Positions 1,433 to 52,188 of a stretch of 64,000 bases of DNA are shown here, one piece after another (within the stretch, counting starts at the first letter, position 1; the number at the start of each line of letters is the position of its first letter). The DNA is from a virus. The stretch spans positions 29,590 to 93,589 of the IMG/VR virus record IMGVR_UViG_3300010396_000045; one strand, written 5' to 3'. The notes below the pieces were generated by a model that ran no database searches, was not told where the DNA came from, and saw only the letters and a list, made by a program, of their open reading frames with translations. A program made the translations under genes and the position numbers.

Positions 1433-2847
1433 CAGTAAACCTCCGGCACCGCAAGAAAGTCGTTGCCGAAGTCTCGGATCAAGTATCCCAGGCTTATTAG
1501 CTTCTGCTGGAGGATAGGCTTATCGACCTTGCCGTATTCGATGAGCATCATCGGACGGTGCAGGCCGATCGTCTTGGCCGCGCCGTCCAGGACTTGCATT
1601 TCCATCCCCTCAACGTCGACCTTGATTAAATCGACGCGGCGGAAGGTCCACATATCCAAGGGGACAAGGGAAACGCGCTCAACCTTGTCCGGATCGTTCC
1701 CGCGCTCCTGGCTCAGCGGCTCACGCTGCCTCTCCCCAAACTCGATAGAGCCGAAGCTACATGGCTTGGTGTAGTCGAACTGCGGAACATCGATCGTGCC
1801 GTGGTGGTCACCGACTGCCGCATGGATGCAGTAGACGTTGGTCCAGCCGTTCAGCGCTACGGACCCAGCCAGCATGTTGAATATCAACCGCTGTGGCTCG
1901 AACGCATAAACCGCGCTGCAATAGGGCCGGAGGGCGAAGGAAAACGTCCCGACGTTCGCGCCGATATCGACGAAGACCGCTCCCGGTCGCTTTTCGATCA
2001 GCGAGATAAGGTAGTCGATCTCATACCACTGCTGGGCAATCCCTCCAGAGCGCAGAGGCGGCGTCTGGTTCGTATCGCAGGACGGCAGGATCATGTCGCC
2101 ATAGCGGGTCCGCGCGACCTCAGAGACGAGGTTCTCCGGGGGCGGCTCCTCAGGCTTAGCCTCAGGCTCTACATTGCCTACCGCGACCGTCGCCCGCACC
2201 GAGAACGGCTGACGGTTCATGAGATTGATCGAGAAGCGCCGCCGCCCGCCTGGCACAAAGCCATGCATCACGGCGTAGTTGGACCGCGTGAACTCCCCCA
2301 GTTCCTTTTCTAAGTCCGGAGGAAGGATCGCAATGACGTCGTGCGCTATATCGCAGATCCGACCAGCCTCGCGCGCCATAGCCTTGATCCGGCTGATTTC
2401 CGGATAGGCCTTCGGATCGTGTGGCTGCGGAGGAATAAAGCACGTCGCGTCGTCGATCAGGATGGCGTGCCGATGCGGAGAGCAGAGGATCAGCATCAGC
2501 TCTTCAATAATCGGGCAGTCGTCCGGCCCGTTGCCGAACAGCCCAGCCGCGTTATGCGCGTCCAGCCAGAACAGCGCAGGCCCATCGAGACGAGCAACAA
2601 CGCGAGGCAAGATGGTCCGTGAGTCGCCCAGCCTGTAGGTGATGTTCTCCAGACCGTCGCAGCGGTTCATGGCCTTCTGGAGAAAGTCCTCGTCGATATC
2701 GAGGGTATCGACCTCCTCGAAGTGCAACGCAGCCCATTGGGTAGACTCACCCTGATAGGTGCCTGTCTCGACAAGGCGCTTAATTCCGATACGGTCGCGC
2801 AGCTTTAGCGCGAACTCCGCAATCGGCGGATCGCTCAAGTGTCCCAT
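1432..2847 (-). CDS. Two-domain SAM methyltransferase with FkbM-type C-terminal domain
   Basis: The 471-residue protein has two methyltransferase-like halves. Residues about 1-200 contain LVETGTYQGESTQWA, a degenerate SAM-binding motif I, followed by an LDIDED acidic loop. Residues about 265-470 are a FkbM-family domain with FVDIGANVGTFSFALRP (motif I), YAFEPQ and IKVDVEGMEMQVLDGA, all typical of FkbM O-methyltransferases. FkbM enzymes usually methylate hydroxyls on sugars or small molecules. The gene lies directly upstream of the TPR glycosyltransferase and shares its stop/start bases. The pair could decorate and cap a glycan on the fibres; the substrate is not visible. Confidence 0.85.
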   Translation of the reverse strand: MGHLSDPPIAEFALKLRDRIGIKRLVETGTYQGESTQWAALHFEEVDTLDIDEDFLQKAMNRCDGLENITYRLGDSRTILPRVVARLDGPALFWLDAHNAAGLFGNGPDDCPIIEELMLILCSPHRHAILIDDATCFIPPQPHDPKAYPEISRIKAMAREAGRICDIAHDVIAILPPDLEKELGEFTRSNYAVMHGFVPGGRRRFSINLMNRQPFSVRATVAVGNVEPEAKPEEPPPENLVSEVARTRYGDMILPSCDTNQTPPLRSGGIAQQWYEIDYLISLIEKRPGAVFVDIGANVGTFSFALRPYCSAVYAFEPQRLIFNMLAGSVALNGWTNVYCIHAAVGDHHGTIDVPQFDYTKPCSFGSIEFGERQREPLSQERGNDPDKVERVSLVPLDMWTFRRVDLIKVDVEGMEMQVLDGAAKTIGLHRPMMLIEYGKVDKPILQQKLISLGYLIRDFGNDFLAVPEVY

Positions 2848-14300: not shown

Positions 14301-14484
14301 CAACAACGCTCGGGGCCGACTTAATACCAAGGACGGTATCCTGAGCCGTGATCCGGAAGAAAAAGCCTGTGCTGCTGGAAAGCCCGCTGACGATGTCGGT
14401 CGTAGCGGAGAACGGCGAGCCGGAGACTGTCGTCCAAGGACCGGATGAAGCGAGAGCCTCTTCTACGATGTAGTTAACGCCCAT
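11335..14484 (-). CDS. Giant tail protein with two GH16-like domains, at least one catalytically dead
   Basis: The 1049-residue protein has an N-terminal fibronectin-III-like module (1-70) and several propeller-like WSLNASGNPVVNG or WQINSAGQVVHGG repeats (about 115-520). Two GH16/laminarinase-like domains follow. Domain 1 (about 535-785) has FSDEFTS and YGYFEVKM, but the catalytic E-I-D-x-x-E reads QIDVIQ at residues 663-668 (12481-12498), so both Glu are Gln. Domain 2 (about 797-1047) has FDDEFSS and VYGYHEFSV, with VELNIYL at 923-929 where the active site should be. The protein probably binds beta-glucan or a similar glycan without cutting it. Its ATG directly follows the stop of the DUF2612-like gene. 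Confidence 0.85.
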   Translation of the reverse strand: MGVNYIVEEALASSGPWTTVSGSPFSATTDIVSGLSSSTGFFFRITAQDTVLGIKSAPSVVGPVITSASSIIESAQNTRVNSSSATTVPSVGPIISVASGSSLGVSWAIPSALYDASLNAWSLYASGTASGVQVSRNGTVLQNTSSVQQIVYWNHNVWMLAGTTTPKATPGSGSFTDSFGNAWSLNASGNPVVNGNIDTVSHAQLLELVNGTVWQEDQAGSWYSLTPTGTITSGALSWNGPVASGPATTAPTWSYYGGDALGGNWIPYSGDPAITASPQQTDVTDTVATIIGTQGTSWQINSAGQVVHGGVSDSGTTGTVELLFWNSTVYRKTNANAWFSWNGSAWVSATKDPRTDITLGQSPSGTFVNNSTWQIVDAAGAHWSMAGVGGGFEIDRNGISVQSPSNVIELLYYQSAVYQATLVTIATITPGVGSITDIHGNVWTIDASGNVLENGTAVPGGGGTGALTYVPQTDTIYAQDQGSGNWYFWNGSTWVGPGAAPPSGSGLSWSFWNNGVWTSTSGDPRILGGSDPNNPTFSDEFTSLNMYNIYAPAAGQTWQPAEDYAPLNAGNPGSDMWVLNPFNPATPITSIYTVSNGVLNLRVDNTPSQYLSAVNNLPYISAQLQTALTFSQTYGYFEVKMAVQPLTGTGAGFILYSTQGANQIDVIQINTNQTSFQAGGFALWDAASSQVLQNVYTYNAVGVGTVDCSQFHQYGVLVTPTTTTFYIDRVAQGSWPTPSGYGVPLYPLIYMGDADPTSFYGVISSPGSLPVTAQFEYVKVWNAFPGSTPISAIFDDEFSSGSWMSHQVWQSGDMWEFSVPGSPGGSTTGVSTWWVNPIATPSASSLYSLVSGALRLGVMVNPGGLGITEHLLGTIINNFNTPGGCYRVYGYHEFSVSVPKVNGFMFGFDIENHFPGVQDGWSVELNIYLWTDTSGVSHVWFQMVDDGNQGSGAGFQTGGITLYSTTTLDISRPNIYGLDWQSDFIRCFINGVQVGTSHATPGGDWKTQPMGTYIYTNGADYNAGDGTPSDGSLPAYASLDYYRVYATKP

Positions 14485-38469: not shown

Positions 38470-39951
38470 TTAGCTATTATGAGCGGCGAAGACCTTTTGC
38501 AGAGAAGCGCTGTCCACCAGGGCAGTGTCATGCCCAAATCCTGATGGCGTCTGCTCGCCCCACGAGTAGGCGATATCGAACGCAGGATTGGGCAGCAGGT
38601 CCTGCCAGCGATTCATCAGCGCGACCTCCTGGCTGTCGGTCGGCATGACCCAGTCACCAGACCCGTAATTGCCGAACGCCTGATACCAGGGAACCATTTG
38701 GCTGTCTGACCATCCTGCATTCTCCCAGGCGGTCACCCGGTCGTTTATGATGTCGAGGTTCATCCCACCGCTGAAGCCTGACTGCACCGGATAAGGGTCA
38801 ACACCGACCAAATCCTTACTGGTGGTCATATCCACGGCCGAGGGACCAAAAGCCGCAACCGGGCTGGTGTCGCTTCCAGTGTTTGTCGGAAGAATGAATA
38901 CCATCTTGGTCGGCGCATTGGTGTGGATATAATCCACTTCCGCCTTGAGATTGGCCGTATCGGACGAGGTCGCATCGTCGGCCAAATAATAGCCGTAGAT
39001 ATTGCTGTCAGAAGCGGTCGCCCCGATCGTGCTCTCGAAGCCTGACGTGTCCCCAGTGATAGGCAGAAACATCAATGCTTTATCGCCAGTCGGAAGACTG
39101 TCCGCCAGCGACTGAGACGAGACATCGGCGAGGTTGAAACCGTCGCTTCCGGGATCGCCTGCCGAGTCATAATTCCCGTTAGCGAAATTACCGTTCGGCG
39201 AGTAGTGCAGCGAGGTCGACGGAGCATTGAGCGTGTTGTGCGCCGAGAAAACCGCCTGCAGAGTAGTGTCGTTCTGGATCGCGGTATCGCTACCGACAAC
39301 ACCATAGGTCTGCGCGTAGTCGAACTTAGGCGTGGGCACAACGCTGCCCCATGCGCTGATAATCGCCTCTTCCTGCGTCTGCGTAGGCACGGCGAAGTTC
39401 GCGACATTCCCCTCGGCCTGGTAGCTCGGGATGATCTGCCCTACGTTCCAGCCATCCGTTTCCAGCGTACTAACGGCATCACCGATAATGCTGGTATCGA
39501 ACCCGGACGTAGTCGCCGGCCAGACGTTAGCCGTCACATAATCAGCGTCGGTATTCGTGGGCGTCGCGTAGTAGGACGGACTGGTCGGCGAGCCAGAATT
39601 GCTCGCGGTGATAAATGCGAACTTTCCAGGCGCATTTGCGTGGATATAGTCAATTTCCGACTTCACGTTGGCAGCGTTGGTCGAATCCACCTTGGCCACG
39701 TTGTAGCCGATAATCCGAGGGTCACTGGCCGTTGCGCTGATCGTGTTCTCGAAGGCGGTCGTAAGTCCGCCAGTCGCCCCGAGATACAGGATAGAATTAT
39801 ACTGAGACGGCAGATTATCGGCATCCGACTGATTGCTCACGTCGGCAAGATTGAACCCATACGGCGCATCGGCCAGAGAGTAGGTTCCACTATTATTTAC
39901 CACGTTGCCGTCGACGGCATAGTGCAGAAAGGTCTGTGGGCCGGTTGTCAT
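38470..39951 (-). CDS. Tandem TIM-barrel glycosidase-like protein (two repeats)
   Basis: The 493-residue protein consists of two related halves of about 245 residues. Each has GFNLADVS near the start, a YGYYLADD or IGYNVAKV strand, EVDYIHTNAPTKMVFIL and a final PxFDxAxxxG...DTALxxxxxLQxVFxAHN block. The second half also has VGVDPYPVQSGFSGGMNLDI. This layout resembles secreted TIM-barrel glycosidase-like proteins of alphaproteobacteria. A single-copy relative lies at 50114-50926. It has no signal peptide, so it is probably virion-borne or cytoplasmic. Catalytic residues cannot be assigned with certainty. Confidence 0.7.
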   Translation of the reverse strand: MTTGPQTFLHYAVDGNVVNNSGTYSLADAPYGFNLADVSNQSDADNLPSQYNSILYLGATGGLTTAFENTISATASDPRIIGYNVAKVDSTNAANVKSEIDYIHANAPGKFAFITASNSGSPTSPSYYATPTNTDADYVTANVWPATTSGFDTSIIGDAVSTLETDGWNVGQIIPSYQAEGNVANFAVPTQTQEEAIISAWGSVVPTPKFDYAQTYGVVGSDTAIQNDTTLQAVFSAHNTLNAPSTSLHYSPNGNFANGNYDSAGDPGSDGFNLADVSSQSLADSLPTGDKALMFLPITGDTSGFESTIGATASDSNIYGYYLADDATSSDTANLKAEVDYIHTNAPTKMVFILPTNTGSDTSPVAAFGPSAVDMTTSKDLVGVDPYPVQSGFSGGMNLDIINDRVTAWENAGWSDSQMVPWYQAFGNYGSGDWVMPTDSQEVALMNRWQDLLPNPAFDIAYSWGEQTPSGFGHDTALVDSASLQKVFAAHNS

Positions 39952-39970
39952 TCGGTCATTCCGATATAGT

Positions 39971-39987
39971 TGAATCTGTTGGATTCA
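39971..39987. terminator. Short perfect hairpin upstream of tandem TIM-barrel gene
   Basis: TGAATC-TGTTG-GATTCA is a 6-bp perfect stem in the 43-base gap between two minus-strand genes. It could attenuate read-through or shape the leader of the downstream gene. No U-run follows. Confidence 0.35.
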
Positions 39988-39994
39988 GAGCCGC

Positions 39995-40300
39995 TTAGGA
40001 CCGCTCCGCCTTAAGGACGCGAGCTACGTCGGTGAGGATATCAAGACGACTACGGCGCGCCCTTACAGAGTCCAGGGTTATCTTTCTCCAGACGGCGTGG
40101 AGCACCTCGTTGCCGTCTAGCTGCTGCTTCTCTACCGCAGAGACAATCTGCCGGCAGACCATATCGTAGATAGCGTCCGCAGCGTCTTCTTCGGTGTAGA
40201 TCGAACAAGTAACGGGAGCCGTAGCATCTTCCCGGACGATAAGATCACGCTCCCAGGTGAGGGATACCTCACCCAGCCATTTGTCTGTAAGAGCGCCCAT
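39995..40300 (-). CDS. Hypothetical small acidic protein
   Basis: ATG 40300 overlaps the stop of the upstream gene (TAATG), preferred over an earlier in-frame ATG at 40321. The 101-residue product (LTDKWLGEVSLTWERDLIVR, then IYTEEDAADAIYDMVCRQIV) is mostly helical and acidic. No family recognised. It shares general character with its two upstream neighbours. Confidence 0.6.
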   Translation of the reverse strand: MGALTDKWLGEVSLTWERDLIVREDATAPVTCSIYTEEDAADAIYDMVCRQIVSAVEKQQLDGNEVLHAVWRKITLDSVRARRSRLDILTDVARVLKAERS

Positions 40301-40548
40301 TAGCCGCGCGCCTTCATCCAAAGGCCGAACATCTCTCTGACGATCTCGGACACAGTCTCTGGGCTATTCTTGTTGTCGAACATATCGAGGAGCATAATCC
40401 GGAAGACATCCTCGTAGACCAACTCACAGTCGGAGCTTGTCCGAGCCGCCTCAATACGGACGTCACCCTTCATGAGAGCGTAGATATCGCGAGCGATACG
40501 CTCCTCTTGCTTTGGCACGTAAGAAGCCGCATTTGTTTCGTCAGCCAT
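40300..40548 (-). CDS. Hypothetical small helical protein
   Basis: The 82-residue product (VPKQEERIARDIYALMKGDV, then VYEDVFRIMLLDMFDNKNSP) is helical and acidic. It lies downstream of dyad copy 5, which is about 80 bases before its start and may control it. No family recognised. Confidence 0.6.
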   Translation of the reverse strand: MADETNAASYVPKQEERIARDIYALMKGDVRIEAARTSSDCELVYEDVFRIMLLDMFDNKNSPETVSEIVREMFGLWMKARG

Positions 40549-40625
40549 GTGCAGGGTTCCTCTGCCTGTGGTCAGGATGGCCGGGGTGTTCGCCGCATCC
40601 CGACCATCCGTATCCTAAGCACATA

Positions 40626-40642
40626 CTATGCATTTTGCAAAG
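40626..40642. promoter_or_regulatory. Recurrent dyad element, copy 5
   Basis: CTATGCA-TTT-TGCAAAG lies in the 107-base space between the minus genes at 40656-40910 and 40300-40548, upstream of the latter. Confidence 0.7.
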
Positions 40643-40655
40643 TGGGGAATCGCTA

Positions 40656-40910
40656 CTACGAGGGGTTATTCTGCCCGTAGTGGATCCGCTCGTGGGTTGT
40701 CACATCGCGCGCTAAGTCGGCGCTGTTCCATCCACACTCGAACAGAAAGTGCGTAATCGTCACCCATAGGGCATACATCATGACTACTGGATCGACGTCC
40801 TCTTCCTCCACCACGCTGCCCATATCGTCCATGAGAGCGCAGAACGTGTCGTCGGCGATCTCTACTTCCCGGTCGAAGCGGTCCTGTTCCTCGGGAGTGA
40901 TATCGGTCAT
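40656..40910 (-). CDS. Hypothetical small acidic protein
   Basis: The 84-residue product (EEQDRFDREVEIADDTFCAL, then MYALWVTITHFLFECGWNSA) is strongly acidic and helical. It overlaps the stop of the HNH gene by four bases. No family recognised. Confidence 0.6.
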   Translation of the reverse strand: MTDITPEEQDRFDREVEIADDTFCALMDDMGSVVEEEDVDPVVMMYALWVTITHFLFECGWNSADLARDVTTHERIHYGQNNPS

Positions 40911-41665
40911 GCTGCTTTCCTCCGCGCTCTCTTGGCTACAAACTCCTCAACCGTCAGAGTATTTTTCTGTCGGTTGCATGGCCCACAGACAAGGTGGAGG
41001 TTATCTGGCAAATTGGAGCCGCCGCGCGAGATAGGCAGCTTGTGGTCTATCTCGAAGTCCTCCCAAATCTCAGTGCAGCATCCAGGGATTCCGCAGACGC
41101 CGCCTTGGTAGACGAGTAATTCCGCAACTTGGCCTGTAGTCAGGCCAGCACCCTCCGCGCCATCGATAAGGCCCCGGCGCCGCAATCTGGCGACTCGCCC
41201 CTTGAGGCGTTCCCGATCTGGATGTTTTTGCCGCTGAAGCTTCCGATAGGCGCTATCATACGCGCGGACGTGCTCCGCCTTCTTATCACGCCAAGCCCGC
41301 ATGATCTTGCGGCGCTGCGCCCTTTGATCCGGCGTAAAACTCTCTCGCTTGAGGCGATCCTTCTCACGCGCAGCTTCGGGGTTCTCTCGTCGCTTCTTCT
41401 TGTTCCACGCTAGAACCCTAGCGTTATGCTTAGCCCGGTTCTCAGGCTTTGCATCGAGCCATGCGTAGTAATTCTGGACAGACGCGGCTCTACGCTCGGG
41501 GAGCGCCTCACACTCCATACAACTCCCGTTGCTGGTGCGGCGGGGAGCTAGATGCCCATTCTTGCACGGATTAGATGAGAGGTAAAAAGGCGAACCGATA
41601 GACTTGGCCTCTTGCCGCGAGCGCGGAAGGCCCTCAGAATCAGGGATAGCCATGCAGCAATTCAT
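40907..41665 (-). CDS. HNH endonuclease with N-terminal zinc module
   Basis: The 252-residue protein has an N-terminal treble-clef-like module (FYLSSNPCKNGHLAPRRTSN, GSCMECE), a long basic helical middle, and a C-terminal HNH core. The core holds CGIPGCCTEIW, then EIDHKLPISRGGSNLPDNLH and LVCGPCNRQKN, giving the CxxC, DHxxPxSxGG and LxCxxCN motifs. It is probably a homing or DNA-nicking enzyme inserted between the capsid gene and small genes. Dyad copy 6, a perfect palindrome, sits upstream of its start. Confidence 0.85.
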   Translation of the reverse strand: MNCCMAIPDSEGLPRSRQEAKSIGSPFYLSSNPCKNGHLAPRRTSNGSCMECEALPERRAASVQNYYAWLDAKPENRAKHNARVLAWNKKKRRENPEAAREKDRLKRESFTPDQRAQRRKIMRAWRDKKAEHVRAYDSAYRKLQRQKHPDRERLKGRVARLRRRGLIDGAEGAGLTTGQVAELLVYQGGVCGIPGCCTEIWEDFEIDHKLPISRGGSNLPDNLHLVCGPCNRQKNTLTVEEFVAKRARRKAA

Positions 41666-41740
41666 CCTTGCTGTTGTGGTTAGGGCCGCGTCGGTGCTCG
41701 AACACCGCCGTGGCCCGATCTATATAATACACTCCGATAC

Positions 41741-41759
41741 GCTATGCAAGCTGCATAGC
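41741..41759. promoter_or_regulatory. Recurrent dyad element, copy 6 (perfect palindrome)
   Basis: GCTATGCA-AGC-TGCATAGC lies 76 bases upstream of the HNH gene start at 41665 and just past the stop of the major capsid gene. It is identical in arms and spacing to the copy beside the RHH gene. Confidence 0.8.
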
Positions 41760-41769
41760 CTTTCGTTGC

Positions 41770-42945
41770 TCAGCCGATACCATCGACGCTAAAGCACGTC
41801 TCCGGGTACACGAACTCAACCACGCCAATTCGGCCGAAATAGGTGGTCAACTGAAACAAATTCCTGTATTCCAGGGGGGTCCGCTGCAAAGGAACCAACG
41901 GGAAGCGCACCCGATCCCGCTCCTTCGTATAGACGAACATCCGGTCGGTATTGCCCGTCCCGCGCCCTGTCAGCCACTTCACCGGCTGGATATTCAACGG
42001 CCTGCCATACGCTGCGTTCGACAAGCTGTTGTTGCGCAGGAATTCGAGGACAGACACGTTACCGGCGCTGGAGACCTTCTGGCTGACGAGGTAGCCGAAC
42101 TCGACGGGCGGAAGGCGCAGTTCGGTCGGCATGACGGCCCAGCCGCTGTTGGTCCAGCACTGCGTCAGAGCGGTATTGACGTCGGCCAGGATCGCGTCCG
42201 GCGTCTTGTCGATCCACTTGAGGCTGGTGGTCTGGCCGGTCGGCGAGGTAGCGCCAGCCTGGGCGGCGTTCGTGAACGAGACGAGCGTGTCGTTGTTCAC
42301 CAGGCCTTTCTGACCCAGACTGGTGTCGCCGATGTAGACCATCTCATCGACGTCCATCTGGTACTTGAGCTTGAGGCCGTCATACTTCTGCACGTCGATC
42401 GGGCGTCCGATCTTCTGCGCGGAAGCCAGCTCGGGCATCGTGTATTTCAGTTCCATCGCCCAGAGGTACAGGGGATGGGTGGTCTTACCGATGTCGAGAG
42501 CGATGCCGGTGATCTGGTTGGCATCTTTGGACAGCCACGCCTTGCCGGTCGGCACAACGCCGCCTGCTGATGCGAAGCTGGAGTTGGTGAAGGACGACAC
42601 TTCGTCTGCGATCGTGACGTCTTCACGGAGGTCGATATCGCGCCCCCAGGTTACGGCCACCAACGGGTCGTGGAGGGTCTGGTCGAGGCGCTCAAGTTCA
42701 CCGATGAGAAATGAGCCGGTCGAGTCCTTCGTGTAGGAGAACTCGTCGAAGGTCATAAACGAATCGGTCGTGTAGGCGCGGCCTTTGGATACGCCTTCAC
42801 GATAGCCGCGCTTCCAGTCAACGGTCATGCCGTTGTCGAAGCGGATGATGTCACCCTTGACGCGAGGGTCGCTGTGGCCGGGTTGGATCAGGTTTGGGCT
42901 GACATACGCCGAACGCGCACCGCCGTAGAGCAGGCGATTGCTCAA
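41770..42945 (-). CDS. Major capsid protein (DUF2184-like)
   Basis: The 391-residue protein starts at TTG 42945 behind AGGAG. It contains VDWKRGYREGVSKGRAYTTD, SFMTFDEFSYTKDSTGSFLI, LREDVTIADEVSSFTNSSFA and MVYIGDTSLGQKGLVNNDTL, a clear DUF2184 major capsid profile. It forms the HK97-fold shell. A strong hairpin precedes it (43002-43024), downstream of the cement gene. Confidence 0.92.
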   Translation of the reverse strand: MSNRLLYGGARSAYVSPNLIQPGHSDPRVKGDIIRFDNGMTVDWKRGYREGVSKGRAYTTDSFMTFDEFSYTKDSTGSFLIGELERLDQTLHDPLVAVTWGRDIDLREDVTIADEVSSFTNSSFASAGGVVPTGKAWLSKDANQITGIALDIGKTTHPLYLWAMELKYTMPELASAQKIGRPIDVQKYDGLKLKYQMDVDEMVYIGDTSLGQKGLVNNDTLVSFTNAAQAGATSPTGQTTSLKWIDKTPDAILADVNTALTQCWTNSGWAVMPTELRLPPVEFGYLVSQKVSSAGNVSVLEFLRNNSLSNAAYGRPLNIQPVKWLTGRGTGNTDRMFVYTKERDRVRFPLVPLQRTPLEYRNLFQLTTYFGRIGVVEFVYPETCFSVDGIG

Positions 42946-43001
42946 TTTAAGAAACTCCTAGATTTGTCGGTTGATCCGTTCCCAGCGGTCCGACGCGATT
43001 T

Positions 43002-43024
43002 GAGAGGCGGCGTCGACGCCTCTC
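43002..43024. terminator. Strong hairpin between cement and capsid genes
   Basis: GAGAGGCG (43002-43009) pairs perfectly with CGCCTCTC (43017-43024). It lies at the end of the cement gene and upstream of the capsid leader. No U-run follows on the minus strand, so it may stabilise or process the capsid mRNA rather than end it. Confidence 0.55.
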
Positions 43025-43028
43025 AGGC

Positions 43029-43538
43029 TCAGAGGTTGAAAGCGATCTCGACCATACCGTTCGAGTCAGCCGGACCCATGAAGTAGCTATTGGAGGTCAG
43101 CAGCACGGCGCTAGTCGTGGAACTCGCTTCAACGGAACCGAGCGAAGGATGCGTCGTGCTGGTAGTGCCGAGGAAAATCCAGGGAGCCCCTCCCTTCACA
43201 GCAGCCGCAGGTCCCTGGAGTTGAACGGTCATGTAACCGCGCTTCAGGATATCGACGAGACCCGAGGTGGGAGGCGTCGAGATGTTCAGAGGATCCTGGC
43301 TCGACTGCGTCGGGTATGGGCGGACGATAAAGCCGTAGGGCTGGCCTGTATCGCCGCTGGTCATGACGCGGACGTTGCCGACCTGGCCCGAAGTGCTGCT
43401 CAGCACAACAGGCAAGCCGTAAGCGAGAGGAGCCTCGCCAGCAGCGCTGCTGACAACCTGAGTTTCAATCGTGGCAGACGCAATACGGTTGACGTCGCCG
43501 GGGATGCCAGCAGGCATCCGGAACGCATAAGCAACCAT
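43029..43538 (-). CDS. Capsid cement/decoration protein
   Basis: The 169-residue protein (AYAFRMPAGIPGDVNRIASA, TIETQVVSS, APLAYGLPVVLSSTSGQVGN, and GFIVRPYP) resembles the structural cement proteins encoded just before DUF2184 capsids. It should bind the outer shell. Family call rests on motif resemblance and position. Confidence 0.8.
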   Translation of the reverse strand: MVAYAFRMPAGIPGDVNRIASATIETQVVSSAAGEAPLAYGLPVVLSSTSGQVGNVRVMTSGDTGQPYGFIVRPYPTQSSQDPLNISTPPTSGLVDILKRGYMTVQLQGPAAAVKGGAPWIFLGTTSTTHPSLGSVEASSTTSAVLLTSNSYFMGPADSNGMVEIAFNL

Positions 43539-43571
43539 TTTCTATGTGGTCCTTAGTCTTGAATGGAGGAT

Positions 43572-45173
43572 TTAGTGGCGGGTCTGCTTCGCCCAGAAGT
43601 CTGCGTTCTTCTGGTTCATCTCAGCGACCTTGCTCTGCATGTTCTTGTTGCCTGGCATGTCGCGGTAGTTCACGCCGTCATGGACATAAGCTGCGCGCTT
43701 GCTGTTGGCCTGCTGGACCATGCTGCTTGCGGCGTTGAACAGCGTCTTGACGGCATCGCACGTCATCTGACGCAGTTCCGGACGGCCCTCGTGGATGCCC
43801 TCGATGACATCGCGAGTGTCGTCTTCCTTCAGCGCCTCGCCGAGCACCTTGCGACGGAAGCCGCACATAGCGTCCTGCGTGGACCTTGCTGACGCCTTGG
43901 CGTCGAACGTCGGCATGCGGATGCCAGGCGCGAGCACTTCGGCGCGGCTCAGCAATTCCTGCCAGGAGCCCTTGAGCGACGTGCTGTCGCCTACCATCGC
44001 CTTACGACGGCGGTCGCCGGTCAGATGGCCTTCCTCGGTCGGGCCACCAGTATCTTCGCGAGGAGCGTCATCCGGCATGTCGGTATCCGGAGCGGTCGGC
44101 GCTTCGTCGCGCGCACGGCCACGTCCGCCACGGTCGACGGTGCGACGGTCGCCGCCTGGAGGCGCTGACTCTTGCTCCTCAGGCGCTTCTTCCATGCCGT
44201 TGCCGCCTTCCTCTTGCGCGAGGATAGCGATGGCACGCTCTACGGCCTCCAGACGCTCCAGGATGCTCTGGAGGTCGCCGCCGCCTGCGCTTGCAGTGGG
44301 ATCACCACCACCAAACGACGGGGGAGAGCCGCCTTCGGCTTCGTCACCGCCCATGCTCATACCGCCGCCGCCGTTGTGGAGGTGGATGTGCATGCCGTTG
44401 TTGTCTGAGGTGGTCTTTGCCTCAATCGGCGCGTCGATCTTGGCGAAACCGCCTTGCTCGTTAGCGCCGGAGAGAACGTCACCCAGCATGCCAGTCACGC
44501 GCTGAAGCTCGGATACCAGTTCGTCGACTGTTTTCGCGTCTCCGGCCCGAGCGGCACGCGAGATGGCATCGCGGTAACGAGCTTGAATGGCGTCGAGAGA
44601 CACCATGCCACGCGAACCTGCCATTTCGTGGTCTCCAATGTAGCACTTAGGACCGCATCGACCTTTGTCGACTAGGGCCACATGATTGCCAACAATGAGG
44701 TGTTGGCGTCCTTCGCCGGGAGATATCTGGCTGTATTCGGCATCGTACCCGGCCGAAAGCTGCCTTTTGCCTTCCCGCACGTCCCTGATCGCGTCTGCGT
44801 CCTGAATGAGCAGGTCCGCATACAGAAAATCGCTGTCGAGCAGCGCCCCGTCTCCGCGATGGGGATTAAGCACGACGCCTATTGCGTAGTCTTTCCATGT
44901 CAGAGGATCGACCTTCTGAGGTGGGTGGTCGTTCGTGACAGGTTTTCCGTTGAATGAGGCGACGGCGATGGGCGCAAATACATCAGCCGCGTCTCGATGA
45001 ATCCTGATTATGCCGTCTGGCCCAGCCTCTACGGGCACTTCCCCCTGCGCATAAAGCATGGAGCCTGTGCGGGCTATCGGCGCGTCTTTTACGAGCAGGA
45101 ACCCCTCTGGCGTGAGTTCCTGGTGTACGCCGAGTTTTTCCGCAGTGTAAAAGCGAAGTACGGGATCGGGCAT
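43572..45173 (-). CDS. Prohead protein, DUF2213 protease-scaffold fusion
   Basis: The 533-residue protein has a DUF2213 domain at about 1-185: LTPEGFLLVKDAPIARTGSM, PVTNDHPPQKVDPLTWKDYA, GKRQLSAGYDAEYS and VGNHVALVDKGRCGP. The conserved His in NDHPP and the Ser in LSAGYDAEY are candidates for a herpes-type prohead protease site. The C-terminal half is a long Glu/Gly/Arg-rich scaffold-like region ending in MRQMTCDAVK-like helices. It should guide capsid assembly and be cleaved. Dyad copy 7 lies upstream. Confidence 0.85.
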   Translation of the reverse strand: MPDPVLRFYTAEKLGVHQELTPEGFLLVKDAPIARTGSMLYAQGEVPVEAGPDGIIRIHRDAADVFAPIAVASFNGKPVTNDHPPQKVDPLTWKDYAIGVVLNPHRGDGALLDSDFLYADLLIQDADAIRDVREGKRQLSAGYDAEYSQISPGEGRQHLIVGNHVALVDKGRCGPKCYIGDHEMAGSRGMVSLDAIQARYRDAISRAARAGDAKTVDELVSELQRVTGMLGDVLSGANEQGGFAKIDAPIEAKTTSDNNGMHIHLHNGGGGMSMGGDEAEGGSPPSFGGGDPTASAGGGDLQSILERLEAVERAIAILAQEEGGNGMEEAPEEQESAPPGGDRRTVDRGGRGRARDEAPTAPDTDMPDDAPREDTGGPTEEGHLTGDRRRKAMVGDSTSLKGSWQELLSRAEVLAPGIRMPTFDAKASARSTQDAMCGFRRKVLGEALKEDDTRDVIEGIHEGRPELRQMTCDAVKTLFNAASSMVQQANSKRAAYVHDGVNYRDMPGNKNMQSKVAEMNQKNADFWAKQTRH

Positions 45174-45200
45174 TGAAAACGTACCTCGTAAGCACCTAGA

Positions 45201-45217
45201 CTATGCAAAACGCATAG
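45201..45217. promoter_or_regulatory. Recurrent dyad element, copy 7
   Basis: CTATGCA-AAA-CGCATAG lies between the divergent prohead gene (start 45173) and the plus-strand Cys gene (start 45227). Confidence 0.7.
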
Positions 45218-45226
45218 GAGCGCGCG

Positions 45227-45433
45227 ATGCGCGAATGCCGGGACTGCAATTACTCGACTAGCGACGGGATCTGCCTGCATGAGTCAGCACGCGACCCGTC
45301 AGGCACACATCCGAACCTCTCGACCGCTGAGAACCGCGCCTTCGTCGATACGCAGGGACGCTACTGCGGTAGAGAGGGACGCTTCTGGATGGCTCGAGAC
45401 CTCGTCTGGCCGTCCGCGCCGATTGAGGGATAG
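45227..45433 (+). CDS. Small Cys-rich protein, paralog of 53938-54138
   Basis: The 68-residue protein has CRDCNYSTSDGICLHESARD and GRYCGREGRFW, a CxxC...C...C pattern expected to bind one metal. A minus-strand relative at 53938-54138 shows the same CxxC...C...CGxxGxxF layout. It is one of the isolated plus-strand genes inside the head operon and has a dyad element 10 bases upstream of its start. Unknown role. Confidence 0.7.
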   Translation: MRECRDCNYSTSDGICLHESARDPSGTHPNLSTAENRAFVDTQGRYCGREGRFWMARDLVWPSAPIEG

Positions 45434-45546
45434 TTAGCGCGCGGCGTAACCGCGATCACGAACCCTAGCCAGACGACGAACGCGCCAAATATGATGATGC
45501 CGTGGGCCATCCAATCCAGCACGTCGACTATCAGGTAGACGGACAT
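45361..45546 (-). CDS. Possible small membrane protein antisense to the Cys gene
   Basis: The 61-residue frame has a membrane helix (WMAHGIIIFGAFVVWLGFVI). It starts one base after the stop of the glycosidase-like gene and its 3' end overlaps the plus-strand Cys gene by 73 bases. The ribosome site is weak (CAGTAGG next to ATG). Plausible but not certain. Confidence 0.45.
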   Translation of the reverse strand: MSVYLIVDVLDWMAHGIIIFGAFVVWLGFVIAVTPRANYPSIGADGQTRSRAIQKRPSLPQ

Positions 45547-45547
45547 C

Positions 45548-47164
45548 CTACTGGGCCGAAAACCCGTAGCCCCCAGTGCTATGAAACGAATGGCTAGCGC
45601 CAGAGATAGCTTTACCGTCGTACGACCCGCTTAGGAGATACATATTCCTGTCGGTCTGCGGCGTGCCGTTATAGAGATCGTTGGTGAACGTGACGGTGAT
45701 CTGCGGAGGCGACGACCACGTTCCGAAGACCGTAAAGACCTGTTGCTGCTTCTGAGAGTGAAGCGCTTTGACAGGCTGTGGGTTGGGCCAAGCGGGAGAG
45801 CCGTTGACGCTTATCTGCGCCAAGGCATCGCCCTGGTAAGCGTCCTCGTTCAGATATAGCTGCAAGGCGTGTCCGCCTAGAGCCGCTACAGGCCCCGCCA
45901 TTGCCGATGGAGTAGGAGCGGGAGGGGGAGTTGGCGTCCCGCTCGCTGCCTCGAGGATATATGTCGAATAGCCGTTAAGCGTAAGCTGCGCTGAGGAGGC
46001 ATTGCTCAGAGTGGCGGTAGGAGTCGTCCCCTTGCTGACGTCGTAGATCTTTACCGTGCCGAACGTCTGACCGAACTGCACAGTTACCGGAGCAGATCCG
46101 GAGGCTATTTCACTCCAGACGGCAAGATCATATGCGCCGTTCGACTTCTGGAGCAGCAGGCTATGAACCGTTCCTGGTTGGTTGGAGATAGAATAATCCA
46201 TTGACCCCAGACTGGCAGGAGCGGAGTTGTCAGCTAGGATCGACGTCAGGTTGTGGATATAGGTCGCGGCTGGCTTCGCTGTCCCATCGCTATGGTACAG
46301 ACCTTGTGCGCCGCTTGAGCCCTCGCCATCGACCATCTCGTAAATGAAGGTATAGCGCCAGCCACGCGCAAACTGCGCTAGATAGGTGTTCGTCAGCACG
46401 CCAGCCTGGACGGCCTCATTACCATCGGAGACGCTGTCCCAGCCAGTCTCGGTCGTCACACGAGGCAGCGTTTGAAGATCGGCGTTTGAATAGCCGGAGA
46501 AGCCCTTCATCCATGTGCGGCCATACTCGACGTAGAGCCCATCCCACGCGCCGTTCAGCGTCGGATCTGCTGCGGACCACGGCATGTTGTCGATAAGATG
46601 CCCGACGTGGCCAGAGACGTAGTTGTGCGGGTTAGCATAGTCAGCGAGCTTCGTGCCGGGAGGAGCGGCGCTTATCGTCCCCGCACCGGAGGGGACAATT
46701 AGGAACTGCATCCCCGCGTTGTTGGTCTCTGCCCCTCCCTCGCTTACGTGGAAGACCGGGTAGTTCTTTAGCTGCGGATCATTCTTCAGGCCGCTGTAGA
46801 GTGCAGCCTGGCATTGCGCGACAGGCCCCCAGTCTCCCATCCCGCCGCCTTGCTGGCCATTGAAGGTAATGGGCCAGTTGTTCGGCTCGTTCGCTCCTTC
46901 AAGCGATAGCAGCGCTCCAGCCGAGGCTAGTTGCTTTGCCTGCGAAAGCTGGTCGGCTACTCCACATTCAGCAACGAGGTCCATCAGGACGCCGGTCTGC
47001 TGATGCACTGAAAGGGTGGTGGAGAGGTTGCGCCCGCCGTCACGGATATTGCGGACGCCGGTATATTGCAGCATATCCGCATGGCCCGGGTAGCCCTGGT
47101 CGATGTGGGTTACGACGCCGAGAGACGAAAGGAACGCCACAGCGGCAACAGCAGTTGTGCTCAT
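45548..47164 (-). CDS. Clan GH-A glycosidase-like protein with C-terminal carbohydrate-binding module
   Basis: The 538-residue protein has a TIM-barrel-like core. LLSLEGANEPNNWP has the Asn-Glu-Pro acid/base motif with Glu93, and LPRVTTETGWDSV near residue 240 is a likely nucleophile site (TETG). After a linker (PTPPPAPTPSA), the last 115 residues (LQLYLNEDAYQGDALAQISV, HSQKQQQVFTVFGTWS, TFTNDLYNGTPQTDRNMYLL) match the calcium-dependent xylan-binding CBM60-like module. It lies between head morphogenesis and capsid genes, far from the tail fibres. It may be a head-borne or released depolymerase. GAGGAG precedes its ATG. Confidence 0.8.
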   Translation of the reverse strand: MSTTAVAAVAFLSSLGVVTHIDQGYPGHADMLQYTGVRNIRDGGRNLSTTLSVHQQTGVLMDLVAECGVADQLSQAKQLASAGALLSLEGANEPNNWPITFNGQQGGGMGDWGPVAQCQAALYSGLKNDPQLKNYPVFHVSEGGAETNNAGMQFLIVPSGAGTISAAPPGTKLADYANPHNYVSGHVGHLIDNMPWSAADPTLNGAWDGLYVEYGRTWMKGFSGYSNADLQTLPRVTTETGWDSVSDGNEAVQAGVLTNTYLAQFARGWRYTFIYEMVDGEGSSGAQGLYHSDGTAKPAATYIHNLTSILADNSAPASLGSMDYSISNQPGTVHSLLLQKSNGAYDLAVWSEIASGSAPVTVQFGQTFGTVKIYDVSKGTTPTATLSNASSAQLTLNGYSTYILEAASGTPTPPPAPTPSAMAGPVAALGGHALQLYLNEDAYQGDALAQISVNGSPAWPNPQPVKALHSQKQQQVFTVFGTWSSPPQITVTFTNDLYNGTPQTDRNMYLLSGSYDGKAISGASHSFHSTGGYGFSAQ

Positions 47165-47174
47165 CGGCGCTCCT

Positions 47175-47987
47175 CTAGGCGGGCATTTTGCTGGCTAAGA
47201 ACCGATCAGGAACGATAACTTCGCTGAAGCATCTACAATTCCAGATCATTCCCGCGTGGTATGGCGGAACTCCTGCGTCGACCTCTGGAGGCTGGTCCCA
47301 TCGGACGAATTTGCCCTCCATCTCGCGGTGGCTTTTTCGGACTCTACCGTCGCGAACAGTCCGCCAAATGTACCCGGGAGAGCCGATATGCTGCGCTCTA
47401 GCCTGCGTCAGCGACGACGAAACCCGCGCCGTCTCCGTCCGCGCTATCATCGTCGCCCGGTTCCGCGTTACGCGCCCGGTCTCCATGATATGTTCGATCA
47501 GTGAGCCGTAGCGCTCGCCCGCGTAGAGGTTACCGATCGCTATCTCGTGGACTCTCTCTGCCGCCTGCGTCGGGAGCGACGTTATGAGGTGGACCTGCTC
47601 CTCTAGGTATTGCCGCATAGCAAAGCCGGTCGGAGCCGTCTGTATTTCCCGAGCTAGCTCTCGGCTCATCTTCTTCGATAGCCGAAACCACGCCTGCTCG
47701 TCCCTGCGCGCGACCTCTGCTATAAAGCGTGTGGCTACCGCCCTCGCCCACGGCTCTATGAGTGCCGAGTAACGGTGTAGGAGTTGCTCCAGGTGCGCCA
47801 GGTCCATTTCAACGCCCGGGGACGCGAAGGCCCGCACCAGGTCTTCGATGTGCTTTGCCACTTGGCGCAAACGTCGGCCATAGTCGTTTTCCGCCCTGCG
47901 AACTTTCGCAAAGGCTGCGCGCTCCTCAAAGCTCTCCTGCTGACGGTCAGAAGCGAAGGATATTGCGGACAACGCTGAGAGCGGCAT
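47175..47987 (-). CDS. Head morphogenesis protein, Mu gpF-like
   Basis: The 270-residue protein has TRNRATMIARTETARVSSSL and a C-terminal HAGMIWNCRCFSEVIVPD, with WRTVRDGRVRKSHREMEGKF between. These are the conserved features of phage Mu gpF-type minor head proteins, which assemble at the portal vertex. It overlaps the short 47947-48135 gene by 41 bases. Confidence 0.9.
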   Translation of the reverse strand: MPLSALSAISFASDRQQESFEERAAFAKVRRAENDYGRRLRQVAKHIEDLVRAFASPGVEMDLAHLEQLLHRYSALIEPWARAVATRFIAEVARRDEQAWFRLSKKMSRELAREIQTAPTGFAMRQYLEEQVHLITSLPTQAAERVHEIAIGNLYAGERYGSLIEHIMETGRVTRNRATMIARTETARVSSSLTQARAQHIGSPGYIWRTVRDGRVRKSHREMEGKFVRWDQPPEVDAGVPPYHAGMIWNCRCFSEVIVPDRFLASKMPA

Positions 47988-48135
47988 CGAAGTCCCTGTC
48001 TATCCCCGACATCGCCCCGCGTTCATACTCAATATGCCAGACGAACGGGCCGGGTATCGGCTCCCCTGTATCCCTATTGATCGTCTCGCGCTCGCCGATC
48101 CGGATCACCTTAACGTCGCCGAAGTCGTGTTGCAT
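47947..48135 (-). CDS. Small hypothetical protein between portal and gpF-like genes
   Basis: The 62-residue protein (FGDVKVIRIGERETINRDTG, then FVWHIEYERGAMSGIDRDFD) starts on the stop of the portal gene (TAATG overlap). It is a compact alpha/beta-like sequence without a known family. Coupled start and operon position support it. Confidence 0.6.
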   Translation of the reverse strand: MQHDFGDVKVIRIGERETINRDTGEPIPGPFVWHIEYERGAMSGIDRDFDAALSVVRNILRF

Positions 48136-50081
48136 TAGACCTCGCCGTTCGGCTGGGTGGTCGCGGACTCCTCAACGAACCTGCGGAAAGCGTCGATGTT
48201 CATACGCCGTACCTTGCCGACCTTCTTGCCCTGGAGCGTCTCGTAGCTTTCCACAGCGCTCTTCCGGTCAGGGTATCCCAGAGCGAACTGGTAATCCTCG
48301 AACGCGCCGTCATCGCCTAGCTGCTCGATAGCCCATACAGCCGTGCTGTCCGCTGCGTCACCCACGAAGCATGATATCCTGGCGTCCTCGGACTGGACGA
48401 ATCCGCGACCCGCGTCGTCTACCTGTACCGGGACGCCCTGGACGTCGACCACATGAAACTTGCGCCTCACGTCCTTGCGGGATTGCATAGGCCTCAGATG
48501 AGCGTAGTGGTCGTCTACGTCCTCCTTGGTATCCAGCCCGCTCTTGTGCCCCGGCATAAGCCCTACGTCCGCGATCTTGGGCGCTCCGTGGGCGCCTGCG
48601 GAACTCTCCTCGCTACCAAATAGCTCCTGGGACTCAGGGTGCTCTACGCCGCCCTCACGGCCCGCAGACGCAGCCTCCGGATTATCCGTCAACTCAGACG
48701 GCATCGGCGGCATCATCTCGGCGTCCTTGATCTCCTCGTCCGTGATGTTCGAGAAGATACCCGTTACCTTCGAGTTCTGCCTCAGTTCCTTGAGCGCAGC
48801 CGAATTGGACAGGATGCCAGCGCCTTGGGCATTTACGACAGCCTGTGTCACCGTTCCCGCGATCTGCGCCTTCTCTGTATCGGCAAGCTGCCACAGTGGC
48901 GCAAAATCGAAATTAAAGCCCTCAGGTAGAGGTTCGTTAAACAACGACCGATGGCACAGGTCATAGAGCATCCTTACCGGACGCCGTAGCCGGTCCTCCT
49001 GGGCGCTGTTGATGAAGTCGTAGTAGTTGCGGATATCCGACTCGCCAGTCGCGTTGAGACCCGCAGGAGACTGGCCGAATAGCCGAACAAGCGGGATCTG
49101 CGCCGCGCCGGATAGTTGCTGGCCGAACTGGATCAGCGTCTCGGATAACCCGCCGAAGCCGTAGCTGTGAGTCTCGAACTCGTCGTCCGCATCGAGGAGG
49201 GTAATGCCCTCGTTGGCCTGATACAGTCTGAGCTGCTTGACCATCTCGATAATGCCTTGGTACGCCGCGCCCCCGAAAGCGATAGCCTCCCGGAGTTGCT
49301 TGACCTTCAGCGTCCGTAGATGCGCCCGGTAGATAAGCTGTGCTGCGCCCTGAGTGGCTGAGTCAAACGCTACCAACCGATCATATAGAGGCTCGATGAC
49401 GGACAGGCCCCAGTAGTTCTCCGCCATACGCTGCCAGTAAGGCAGTTCCACGCCGTCCATGCGGATGCAGCGCGTGTAGTGGATTCTTGCGTGCGGTATG
49501 GTGCGCGCGTCGCTGACGACCTCGTAGTATTTCGGCATACCGTAGTCTTTGCCGAGGTCTCTAACCGGATCGTCGACGTGAGGCCAAACCATCCAACGGT
49601 CTAGGACCTGAAGCCCTTTGAACTGGCCTTTGCCGACCGTATCAATCCGTAAGGGGGTCTCTGGCCTTTGGCCTTCTATCAAGATGAACGCTAGACAGCC
49701 ACCGTAGAGGCGAGACCATTTAATCGTGTCGGTCAGACGCTGCCAGATGAGATTGTCTTCTACATATTCTTCTAGCCGGTCAATCTTGTCCGGAGGCATA
49801 TCCGACTCAATGTTGATCCGCTCTCGGGTCATATCCTCCGCGACGGCGTCAACGATCGTTCTGATTAGCCAACTTCCCCTGTAACCAAACTCCAAAAGTG
49901 TGTGATTTCTAGTTATTGGGTTCAGCGTATAGGTCGAACCCGAACTAAGATTGCTGGCGCCTAGCCCGAGGCTGGCTGCGAAGTTCTGATACGTGTCGCC
50001 AACAAACGCCTTATTGCTGCCCGCAGGCACGCGGACGGTAGGCTTAGTCGAGGCAGGCGCTACCTTTGGTCTCCTTGCCAT
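48135..50081 (-). CDS. Portal protein (DUF1073-like) with C-terminal extension
   Basis: The 648-residue protein has AEDMTRERINIESDMPPDKI, TIKWSRLYGGCLAFILIEGQ, VLDRWMVWPHVDDPVRDLGK and QQLSGAAQIPLVRLFGQSPA, all typical of DUF1073 portals. The family core is about 450 residues. Here another 150 or so follow, with GRGFVQSEDARISCFVGDAA and DYQFALGYPDRKSAVESYET, resembling a small alpha/beta module sometimes labelled pyrophosphatase-like in phage polyproteins. The extension's catalytic competence is not evident. Confidence 0.9.
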   Translation of the reverse strand: MARRPKVAPASTKPTVRVPAGSNKAFVGDTYQNFAASLGLGASNLSSGSTYTLNPITRNHTLLEFGYRGSWLIRTIVDAVAEDMTRERINIESDMPPDKIDRLEEYVEDNLIWQRLTDTIKWSRLYGGCLAFILIEGQRPETPLRIDTVGKGQFKGLQVLDRWMVWPHVDDPVRDLGKDYGMPKYYEVVSDARTIPHARIHYTRCIRMDGVELPYWQRMAENYWGLSVIEPLYDRLVAFDSATQGAAQLIYRAHLRTLKVKQLREAIAFGGAAYQGIIEMVKQLRLYQANEGITLLDADDEFETHSYGFGGLSETLIQFGQQLSGAAQIPLVRLFGQSPAGLNATGESDIRNYYDFINSAQEDRLRRPVRMLYDLCHRSLFNEPLPEGFNFDFAPLWQLADTEKAQIAGTVTQAVVNAQGAGILSNSAALKELRQNSKVTGIFSNITDEEIKDAEMMPPMPSELTDNPEAASAGREGGVEHPESQELFGSEESSAGAHGAPKIADVGLMPGHKSGLDTKEDVDDHYAHLRPMQSRKDVRRKFHVVDVQGVPVQVDDAGRGFVQSEDARISCFVGDAADSTAVWAIEQLGDDGAFEDYQFALGYPDRKSAVESYETLQGKKVGKVRRMNIDAFRRFVEESATTQPNGEV

Positions 50082-50113
50082 AAGCGCCTGACCTCAATCC
50101 AAGGAAAGCAGAA

Positions 50114-50926
50114 TTACGCCGCATTATGAGCGGCAAATACCTGCTGCAAGTCGGGAGACATCGACAGCGACGTATCGCCGAGCTGCTGACCCCACGAATA
50201 GGCATAGTCGAACTTCGGGCTAGGCAGCAGGCTCGCCCAACGCTGGAGGATCTCGTTCTCCTGCGTCGTGCTCGGCAGGTTCCAATCGCCGCCCGGATAG
50301 TTGCCGAACGCCTGGAACAACGGGACCATCTGGCTATCCTGCCAACCGGCGCTCTCCCAAGCAGCAACCCGATCGTTGATTACGTCTAGGTTCATGCCGC
50401 CGGCATATTGTGAGCGTACCGGGTAGGGATCGACGCCAACGAGGTCGTTGCTGGTCGTCATATCGACCGCTGCTGGGCCAAACGCCGCAACCGGGCTGGT
50501 ATCGCCGCTCATGTTCTCGGGCAGAACGAAGGACATCTTCGTCGGCGCATGCTGGTGGATATAATCAACCTCGGCCTTGAGGTTCACCGCGTCCCCAGGC
50601 TGCGCGTCGTCCGCCAGATAGTAGCCCCACACCTTCGGGTCACTGGCAGTGGCGTTGATCATGCTCTCGAACGAAGCCGTGTCGCCGGTCGGGCCACCAG
50701 TCCACATTAGACCGACAACGCCAGAAGGCAGGCTGTCCGCGACGGACTGCGAGCTTACGTCCGCCATATTGAAGCCGACGCTGCCGGGGTCGCCTGCTGC
50801 GTTGAAGTCGCCGTTCGCGAAATTCCCGTTCGCTGAATAGTGCAGCGTCGCGCCTGACGGTGGAGTTACAACCGGAGGCGGAGCGGGAGGTGGAGGTGAT
50901 GGGGAATGATGATGGCCATGACTCAT
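50114..50926 (-). CDS. Single TIM-barrel glycosidase-like protein, paralog of 38470-39951
   Basis: ATG 50926 is chosen because it follows GGGAGCG and because the earlier in-frame ATG at 50959 falls inside dyad copy 8. The 270-residue protein has a His/Pro-rich N-terminus (MSHGHHHSPSPPPPAPPP). One copy of the repeat seen at 38470-39951 follows: HYSANGNFANGDFNAAGDPG, WGYYLADDAQPGD, EVDYIHQHAPTKMSFVLPEN, LVGVDPYPVRSQYAGGMNLD and a final LQQVFAAHN. It may be a virion surface enzyme or lectin. It has no signal peptide. Confidence 0.75.
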   Translation of the reverse strand: MSHGHHHSPSPPPPAPPPVVTPPSGATLHYSANGNFANGDFNAAGDPGSVGFNMADVSSQSVADSLPSGVVGLMWTGGPTGDTASFESMINATASDPKVWGYYLADDAQPGDAVNLKAEVDYIHQHAPTKMSFVLPENMSGDTSPVAAFGPAAVDMTTSNDLVGVDPYPVRSQYAGGMNLDVINDRVAAWESAGWQDSQMVPLFQAFGNYPGGDWNLPSTTQENEILQRWASLLPSPKFDYAYSWGQQLGDTSLSMSPDLQQVFAAHNAA

Positions 50927-50945: not shown

Positions 50946-50961
50946 TTTGCAGAATGCATAG
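50946..50961. promoter_or_regulatory. Recurrent dyad element, copy 8
   Basis: TTTGCA-GAA-TGCATAG lies 20 bases upstream of the ATG at 50926. It fixes that start, because the longer reading frame would run through the element. Confidence 0.7.
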
Positions 50962-51009: not shown

Positions 51010-52188
51010 CTACGACCAGAAGGTAACGTTGAGTGTGCTGGCAAGATTAAATTGCGCAGTAGTATTTATTGGCCCTCCGGTCGGCCCGGTCGAATTGTTA
51101 TGGAAAGCCCAGATATTTGACGCGATCTGGCAGTTCGTGTTGCCGCCGCCATCATAAATAGCCCAGAACGGGGAATTATATCCTCCGCCAGCGTCATTTA
51201 GACCCGTCCGGCTCGTGTTGCCGGTGACGATTACGCCGTTGCAGTTCTGTAGGTAGATATCGCAGTCGTCAGCACTTCCGGGCGTACCGCTCTGGCCCTG
51301 TCCGCCTCGAGACAGCGAATTGCCGGTGACCGCCGAATTGCTCACAGCTCGTAGCTGGATATTCGCCTTGCCGTTCGCGTCGAACGAATTGCCGCCGGCT
51401 ATGACCAGGTCTCGCAGCGATCCGCCTGTGCCATCGGCTGTGATGCCGTAGTTCGAGCAGAACTCTACCCGAGAGACCGCCATCCTCACGCTGTGGCAGC
51501 CGTTCGTCAGGACGATACCGCTACCGCAGTTGGTTATCGTGCTGCCGCCTATTGAGGCGTGGTGCGCGCCTCGTATGCCAGCCGTAAAGCAGTCGTGTAT
51601 CCGCAAGCCCAGAAGCGTAGACGGGCCTCCTACGTTGAGGAAATCGACGCCTACCGAGCCGTTGAGGAACGTACAGTCGAAGAGGTCGATATAGCCCTTC
51701 GTCGCCTGGACACACGGCTGCGCGCTCGTGCCGACAACCTGGATATTGTGGAGCTGGCAGAACTGCCCGAGAGATATTGTCGGGTTGCTCGCGCTACTGC
51801 CCTGGATAACCGTGCCTAGGTTCGGGAAGCCAACCGTTCCTGAGTAGGATCCAGTGTTGCGACCGATAATCGCGCAACCGTCAGGGACGTTGAACGCCGA
51901 GACCTTCGATACGCCAGGAGGAGCTACGACCCACGCTCCAGTCCCTTGCGCGACCAGCATAACAGTCGTCCAGGCCGTTGTGTCGTCCGTAGAGCCGTCT
52001 GCTTTAACCCCGCCACCAAATATCGGGTCGGCAGCGTAGATTAGCCCCGAGGCGCTCAGGATGTCCGCGACAGGCTTGCCATAGGTAACGCCAGTGCCGG
52101 GACCACCATAGCCTACCGTGACGGGGATAATGTCCGTCTGAGACGTGCGCGTTGCCGTCTGGGGTAGATTCGAGATCGTCTCGGACAT
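51010..52188 (-). CDS. Beta-helix (pectin-lyase-like) protein
   Basis: The 392-residue protein opens with ISNLPQTATRTSQTDIIPVT, a motif that begins many phage spikes. It continues with GGGVKADGSTDDTTAWTTVM, the usual entry of the pectate-lyase superfamily, and then right-handed helix repeats (GIRGAHHASIGGSTITNCGS, NIQLRAVSNSAVTGNSLSRG). It probably binds or cleaves polysaccharide. Its position among portal and lysis-region genes, not with the tail spike, is unusual. Confidence 0.85.
   Translation of the reverse strand: MSETISNLPQTATRTSQTDIIPVTVGYGGPGTGVTYGKPVADILSASGLIYAADPIFGGGVKADGSTDDTTAWTTVMLVAQGTGAWVVAPPGVSKVSAFNVPDGCAIIGRNTGSYSGTVGFPNLGTVIQGSSASNPTISLGQFCQLHNIQVVGTSAQPCVQATKGYIDLFDCTFLNGSVGVDFLNVGGPSTLLGLRIHDCFTAGIRGAHHASIGGSTITNCGSGIVLTNGCHSVRMAVSRVEFCSNYGITADGTGGSLRDLVIAGGNSFDANGKANIQLRAVSNSAVTGNSLSRGGQGQSGTPGSADDCDIYLQNCNGVIVTGNTSRTGLNDAGGGYNSPFWAIYDGGGNTNCQIASNIWAFHNNSTGPTGGPINTTAQFNLASTLNVTFWS

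Follow-up and report, generated by a model that had tools for sequence, protein, structure and literature searches.

What do glycosidase-like barrel proteins do when a phage encodes them among its head genes, and do they cut polysaccharides or hold them? We addressed this question for a locus in a stretch of 64,000 nucleotides (the window) taken from a virus record of 93.6 kb (positions 29590-93589); the whole record was also searched for further copies of the barrel domain. The original prediction had described a three-copy family of TIM-barrel-like proteins, located near head genes rather than fibres.

Four copies of a barrel domain in one phage

Both open reading frames are present on the minus strand, the plus strand being interrupted by stops at the same positions (Table 1). 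The predicted architecture was borne out, with a tandem duplication in the longer protein (domains D1 and D2) and a single copy with a His/Pro-rich leader in the shorter one (D3). D3 matches the C-terminal half of the longer protein, D2, at 66.5% identity (E 2e-116) and the N-terminal half, D1, at 39.5% identity (E 9e-51). Judged by these alignments, the resemblance to both halves is far above chance, and the repeat family is real. The start of D3 at 50926 is plausible, with GGGAG just upstream, and a longer ATG frame opens at 50959. Exact forms of the sequence blocks said to be shared by the family, LADD, EVDYIH, VGVDPYP and VFAAHN, are confined to D2 and D3; the variants in D1 are EIDYIH and VFSAHN, and LADD and VGVDPYP are missing from it.

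Table 1. Coordinates of the barrel domains and of neighbouring or related genes within the window
Feature	Position	Strand	Remarks
493-aa protein, two tandem TIM-barrel-like domains (D1 N-terminal, D2 C-terminal)	38470..39951	minus	
Domain D1, degenerate copy	39211..39951	minus	strand-4 Glu absent
Domain D2	38470..39210	minus	DPYP retained; strand-4 Glu replaced by Asp
LADD motif of D2	38974..38985	minus	same position as in D3
Domain D3, single copy, 270 aa from ATG 50926, His/Pro-rich leader	50114..50926	minus	
LADD motif of D3	50606..50617	minus	end of predicted barrel strand 4; xDEP in relatives
Beta-helix, tail-fibre-like protein (phrog_6518)	51010..52188	minus	gene before D3
Portal protein	48135..50081	minus	directly after D3
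538-aa GH-like protein, C-terminal CBM60	45548..47164	minus	MuF-to-DUF2213 slot of head operon
Major capsid protein	41770..42945	minus	context
Tail-region protein with GH16 domain	11335..14484	minus	context; another carbohydrase in same phage

Three domains, on two genes, is the correct count for the window, but the whole-record search yielded a fourth copy outside it, D4 (G000:23804-24547), which is 34% identical to D3 (E 4e-33). D4 lies within a 1099-aa open frame that is fibre-like and, by eye, made up mostly of short repeats. The preceding gene encodes a fibre-tail-adaptor-like protein (PF23148) and is itself preceded by a gene whose 984-aa product matches CBM5/12 weakly, below threshold. 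D1–D3 do not lie in a protein of this kind.

The head operon occupies the minus strand of the window in the order beta-helix protein, D3, portal, MuF-like protein, GH-like protein with CBM60, DUF2213 protein, small virion protein, major capsid protein, HNH protein (assigned by eye), several small genes and the D1–D2 gene. The major capsid protein finds its best matches in Bordetella, Acinetobacter and Burkholderia phages, and the Baseplate_J and tail-fibre PHROG matches found elsewhere in the window fit a tailed phage. A position among head genes was supported, and it recurs at head or packaging genes in three other phage lineages. The opposition to fibres held only in part, as D3 also adjoins the tail-fibre-like beta-helix gene and D4 forms part of a fibre-like protein whose gene adjoins one for a fibre-tail adaptor. 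As predicted, no secretion signal was seen, by eye, on D1–D2 or D3.

The slot between the MuF-like and DUF2213 genes holds a second type of putative carbohydrate-active protein. Its assignment as GH-like is based on the CBM60 domain, on homology and on conserved NEP and TETG motifs, whose glutamates are kept; its AlphaFold model (pLDDT 47) was too poor for use. Identification of this protein as Omp10 was dismissed, the NCBIfam match (0.0035) lying far under the cut-off. Relatives of its GH-like domain occur in tail-region proteins of L103 and of L101, the latter sharing its contig with the capsid relative L020. Others are found next to polysaccharide genes in Rhizobium and Roseomonas. The slot is variable across related phages, with GH5 in L019 (1272-2747) and L061 (3142-4509), GH16 in L056 (4543-5496), and short signal-peptide-like proteins in other relatives. 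In addition to the tail-region GH16 protein, the phage encodes a protein with an alpha-amylase C-terminal domain.

Several other features of the record were noted. At its C terminus the portal protein (48135-50081, minus strand) matches the InPase domain PF18823 (residues 567-636, E 6e-7), and an FkbM-type methyltransferase domain is encoded by the phage at window positions 1432-2847 (minus strand). Outside the window, a papain-family cysteine protease (PF00112, E 4e-9; phrog_16701 peptidase) lies at L066:6671-7543, and a TrwC relaxase with AAA helicase domains at G000:3740-7042 (L065:3740-7042). The relaxase raises the possibility of a phage-plasmid or of a chimeric contig.

Predicted fold and the strand-4 residue

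The AlphaFold model of D3, built from a nine-sequence input, reaches a pLDDT of 77, and its eight strands follow the order of a barrel, with low confidence in the N-terminal leader and at residues 45-60. The best Foldseek matches in the PDB include GH5, GH158 and GH18 enzymes (E about 1e-6 to 1e-5, TM about 0.5), and VIA-align gave Z scores of 13.6-14.9 to GH5, GH2 and GH18 chains over 210-249 residues. These comparisons support a (beta/alpha)8 TIM barrel with a glycosidase-like fold for D3. No model in Pfam, NCBIfam or PHROG matches the D1–D2/D3 family: Pfam Cellulase (PF00150) gave no match, nor did any Pfam family at E<=1, and neither a DxxDxDxE motif nor a Pfam GH18 match was present. Searching PDB sequences with D3 or the family profile returned no convincing match.

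The predicted glycosidase-like character therefore stood as regards the fold but not at the end of strand 4, where all four copies lack a glutamate. We aligned 38 sequences, comprising the four phage copies and 34 others, and assigned strand numbers from the AlphaFold model. The residue following the invariant Asp117 is Glu in 34/34 relatives and 0/4 phage copies; the relatives are not independent, 24 being Streptosporangiales, and the count leans on that order rather than on alphaproteobacterial chromosomes. The replacing residue is Ser in D1 and Asp in D2, D3 and D4, the motif alignment being ambiguous by two residues for D4, which sits on a long branch. D2 and D3 retain D117, the replacing Asp, DPYP, Gln216, Tyr254 and Trp256. 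D1 has also lost DPYP (VGVDPYP reads VTANVWP), Phe218 (to E), Tyr254 (to Q) and Trp256 (to Y).

Clan GH-A enzymes have their nucleophile, a glutamate, at strand 7. The family has Gln216 at strand 7 in 38/38 sequences, and the phage copies lack the strand-4 Glu, so the GH-A/GH5 pattern of glutamates at strands 4 and 7 is absent. The position of the strand-4 Glu points to a catalytic role for this residue; no characterised family member was found. On the alignment, the phage copies are homologous to the other members yet deviate from the putative active-site pattern of the family.

Relatives, origin and selection

By whole-domain homology, D1–D4 belong to an undescribed xDEP/DPYP/Q barrel family. 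Single-sequence searches of phage records and viral contigs with D3 gave no match; the IMG/VR relatives were found by profile, which retrieved six contigs with the family. One of these, L016, was dropped as a phage lineage, as it resembles by eye a stretch of actinobacterial chromosome, leaving five other viral contigs. Portal, terminase or capsid genes lie close to the family gene in L011, L014 and L015; the L013 locus is that of L014, and the terminase families differ between L014 and L015. The three lineages with the gene at head or packaging genes are accordingly L011, L013/L014 and L015. A fusion of the domain to GH16 is seen in L012, whose phage status is taken from the IMG/VR listing; two large neighbours there matched no PHROG.

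Among cellular sequences, homologous plasmid proteins of Mesorhizobium and Bradyrhizobium are about 37-42% identical to D3 (tblastn E 5e-43 over 78% for Mesorhizobium), and two places on the Mesorhizobium japonicum plasmid pMLb (L007) match the barrel family. A Streptosporangiaceae MAG carries a homologue, as do 49/297 genomes of its order, Streptosporangiales. Several cellular relatives look secreted, and some adjoin genes that are, or resemble, polysaccharide biosynthesis genes.

In the tree, D1–D3 are sister to the L011 phage protein, which keeps the Glu (100/99), and D4 groups with L013/L015 inside a rhizobial clade (90/88). Parsimony on this tree gives at least two changes of the strand-4 Glu. 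A single clade of the four copies was disfavoured by topology testing (p-AU 0.02), and a clade of the four copies with L011 was not rejected (p 0.097). The family was probably captured from bacteria twice. For D2–D3, dN is 0.27 and dS 3.1 (saturated); for D3–L011, the values are 0.39 and 1.1. Since dN is well below dS in both comparisons, the domains have been kept by selection, and D2 and D3 are under purifying selection.

Candidate roles and comparison with known systems

All four copies have lost the invariant Glu while the fold has remained under selection. We therefore consider it close to an even chance that D1–D4 are captured glycosidase-like barrels that now act as carbohydrate-binding, lectin-like (pseudo-glycosidase) modules for host exopolysaccharide. 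Loss of the Glu in every copy suggests that host slime sugars are mainly gripped, not cut. Further points counted for this reading are the barrel model, the contrast of 34/34 with 0/4, the degeneracy of D1, the location of D4 in a fibre-like protein, the two or more changes on the tree, the D2–D3 dN value, and the occurrence of relatives of both the family and the GH-like neighbour near polysaccharide genes. A GH barrel has become a lectin before, in the chitinase-like lectins (PMC3662789). We infer sugar binding, the exopolysaccharide target and a location in or on the virion.

We propose that a bacterial glycosidase-like barrel was captured by phage, probably twice, and that the strand-4 Glu was then lost from all four copies as selection maintained the fold. 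The barrels would bind host exopolysaccharide, alongside separate glycosidases with intact catalytic residues; D4 would act within a tail fibre, and D1–D2 and D3 either on the particle or after release by lysis. A bolder version is possible but rather doubtful: an unrecognised bacterial glycosidase family would have been taken up at least twice, every copy becoming a non-catalytic polysaccharide binder in head-operon genes and a tail fibre, and this barrel-lectin system would hold the virion in host slime while the slot glycosidases cut.

Against a binding role, D2 and D3 have Asp at the site together with DPYP, and D4 has nearby Asp residues, so that weak or altered catalysis may occur. The main rival accordingly regards D1–D4 as active exopolysaccharide depolymerases with Asp in place of Glu, carried on the virion surface or set free when the host lyses, so that slime is cleared ahead of the progeny. 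The other conserved residues kept by D2 and D3 favour it, as do the Glu of L011, the sister of D1–D3, and the other carbohydrases of the phage. The loss from all four copies of a residue invariant elsewhere, and of further conserved residues from D1, makes this unlikely in our view.

Alternatively, the genes could be auxiliary cargo, encoding carbohydrate enzymes that benefit the host or act on polymers in the environment and play no part in the virion. A soil viral GH5 has measured endomannanase activity (PMC6786970), head operons of related phages carry GH5 and GH16 genes, and several cellular relatives look secreted; however, the lack of a visible secretion signal on D1–D2 or D3, the fusion of D4 into a fibre-like protein and the absence of the Glu from every copy render this explanation improbable. 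Decoration of the capsid by D3, D1–D2 or both, bound through the leader or the tandem arrangement, would suit the placement of D3 next to the portal gene and of D1–D2 after the capsid gene, as well as the head or packaging setting in L011, L013/L014 and L015. Yet the family occurs in 0/47 capsid-gene relatives examined and nowhere in the whole G522 and G523 records, and is therefore not a core head component; no capsid-binding motif was recognised, and we regard decoration as quite improbable. That the domains are decaying, functionless passengers is hardly credible, despite the divergence of D1 and its several lost residues, given that the frames are open and that dN/dS lies well below 1 in the D2–D3 and D3–L011 comparisons.

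These results reveal an unannotated barrel family across Streptosporangiales, rhizobia and several phage lineages. Its Glu-bearing and Glu-less members form a natural set for asking whether phages turn glycosidases into lectins. The head operon, besides tail fibres, also emerges as a phage site for polysaccharide-handling genes (GH-like with CBM60, GH5 and GH16).

Among known systems, GH5 of clan GH-A resembles D3 across the whole barrel domain (Thermoascus Cel5A, 1h1n: Z 14.6, 222 residues, 13% identity), whereas the family here has no Pfam match, a strand-7 Gln throughout and phage copies without the strand-4 Glu. Glycosidases of soil viruses with measured activity are already known (PMC6786970), and they too are bacterial-type carbohydrate enzymes encoded among structural genes on phage contigs; their GH5 endomannanase is active, while the present family matches no GH model and its phage copies lack the invariant Glu. 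Viral barrel proteins in BFVD, such as a putative depolymerase of Acinetobacter phage Aci07 and a protein of Erwinia phage phiEaP8, have a similar predicted fold but are about 700 aa long, whereas D1–D2 and D3 are encoded by short stand-alone genes at the head operon. The uncharacterised "calcium-binding protein" of Mesorhizobium and Bradyrhizobium plasmids is a homologue of D3, but is cellular and has the Glu; on reading its sequence, the C-terminal tail resembles an RTX/T1SS export signal. GH18 chitinases and chitinase-like lectins (TCLL, PMC3662789; RobpsCRA, 4uri, Z 13.8) share the barrel fold, although GH18 has a DxxDxDxE motif where this family has xDEP and no Pfam GH18 match. In the chitinase-like lectins, loss of active-site residues yields lectins; in the phage copies the lost residue is an otherwise invariant Glu with a putative catalytic role.
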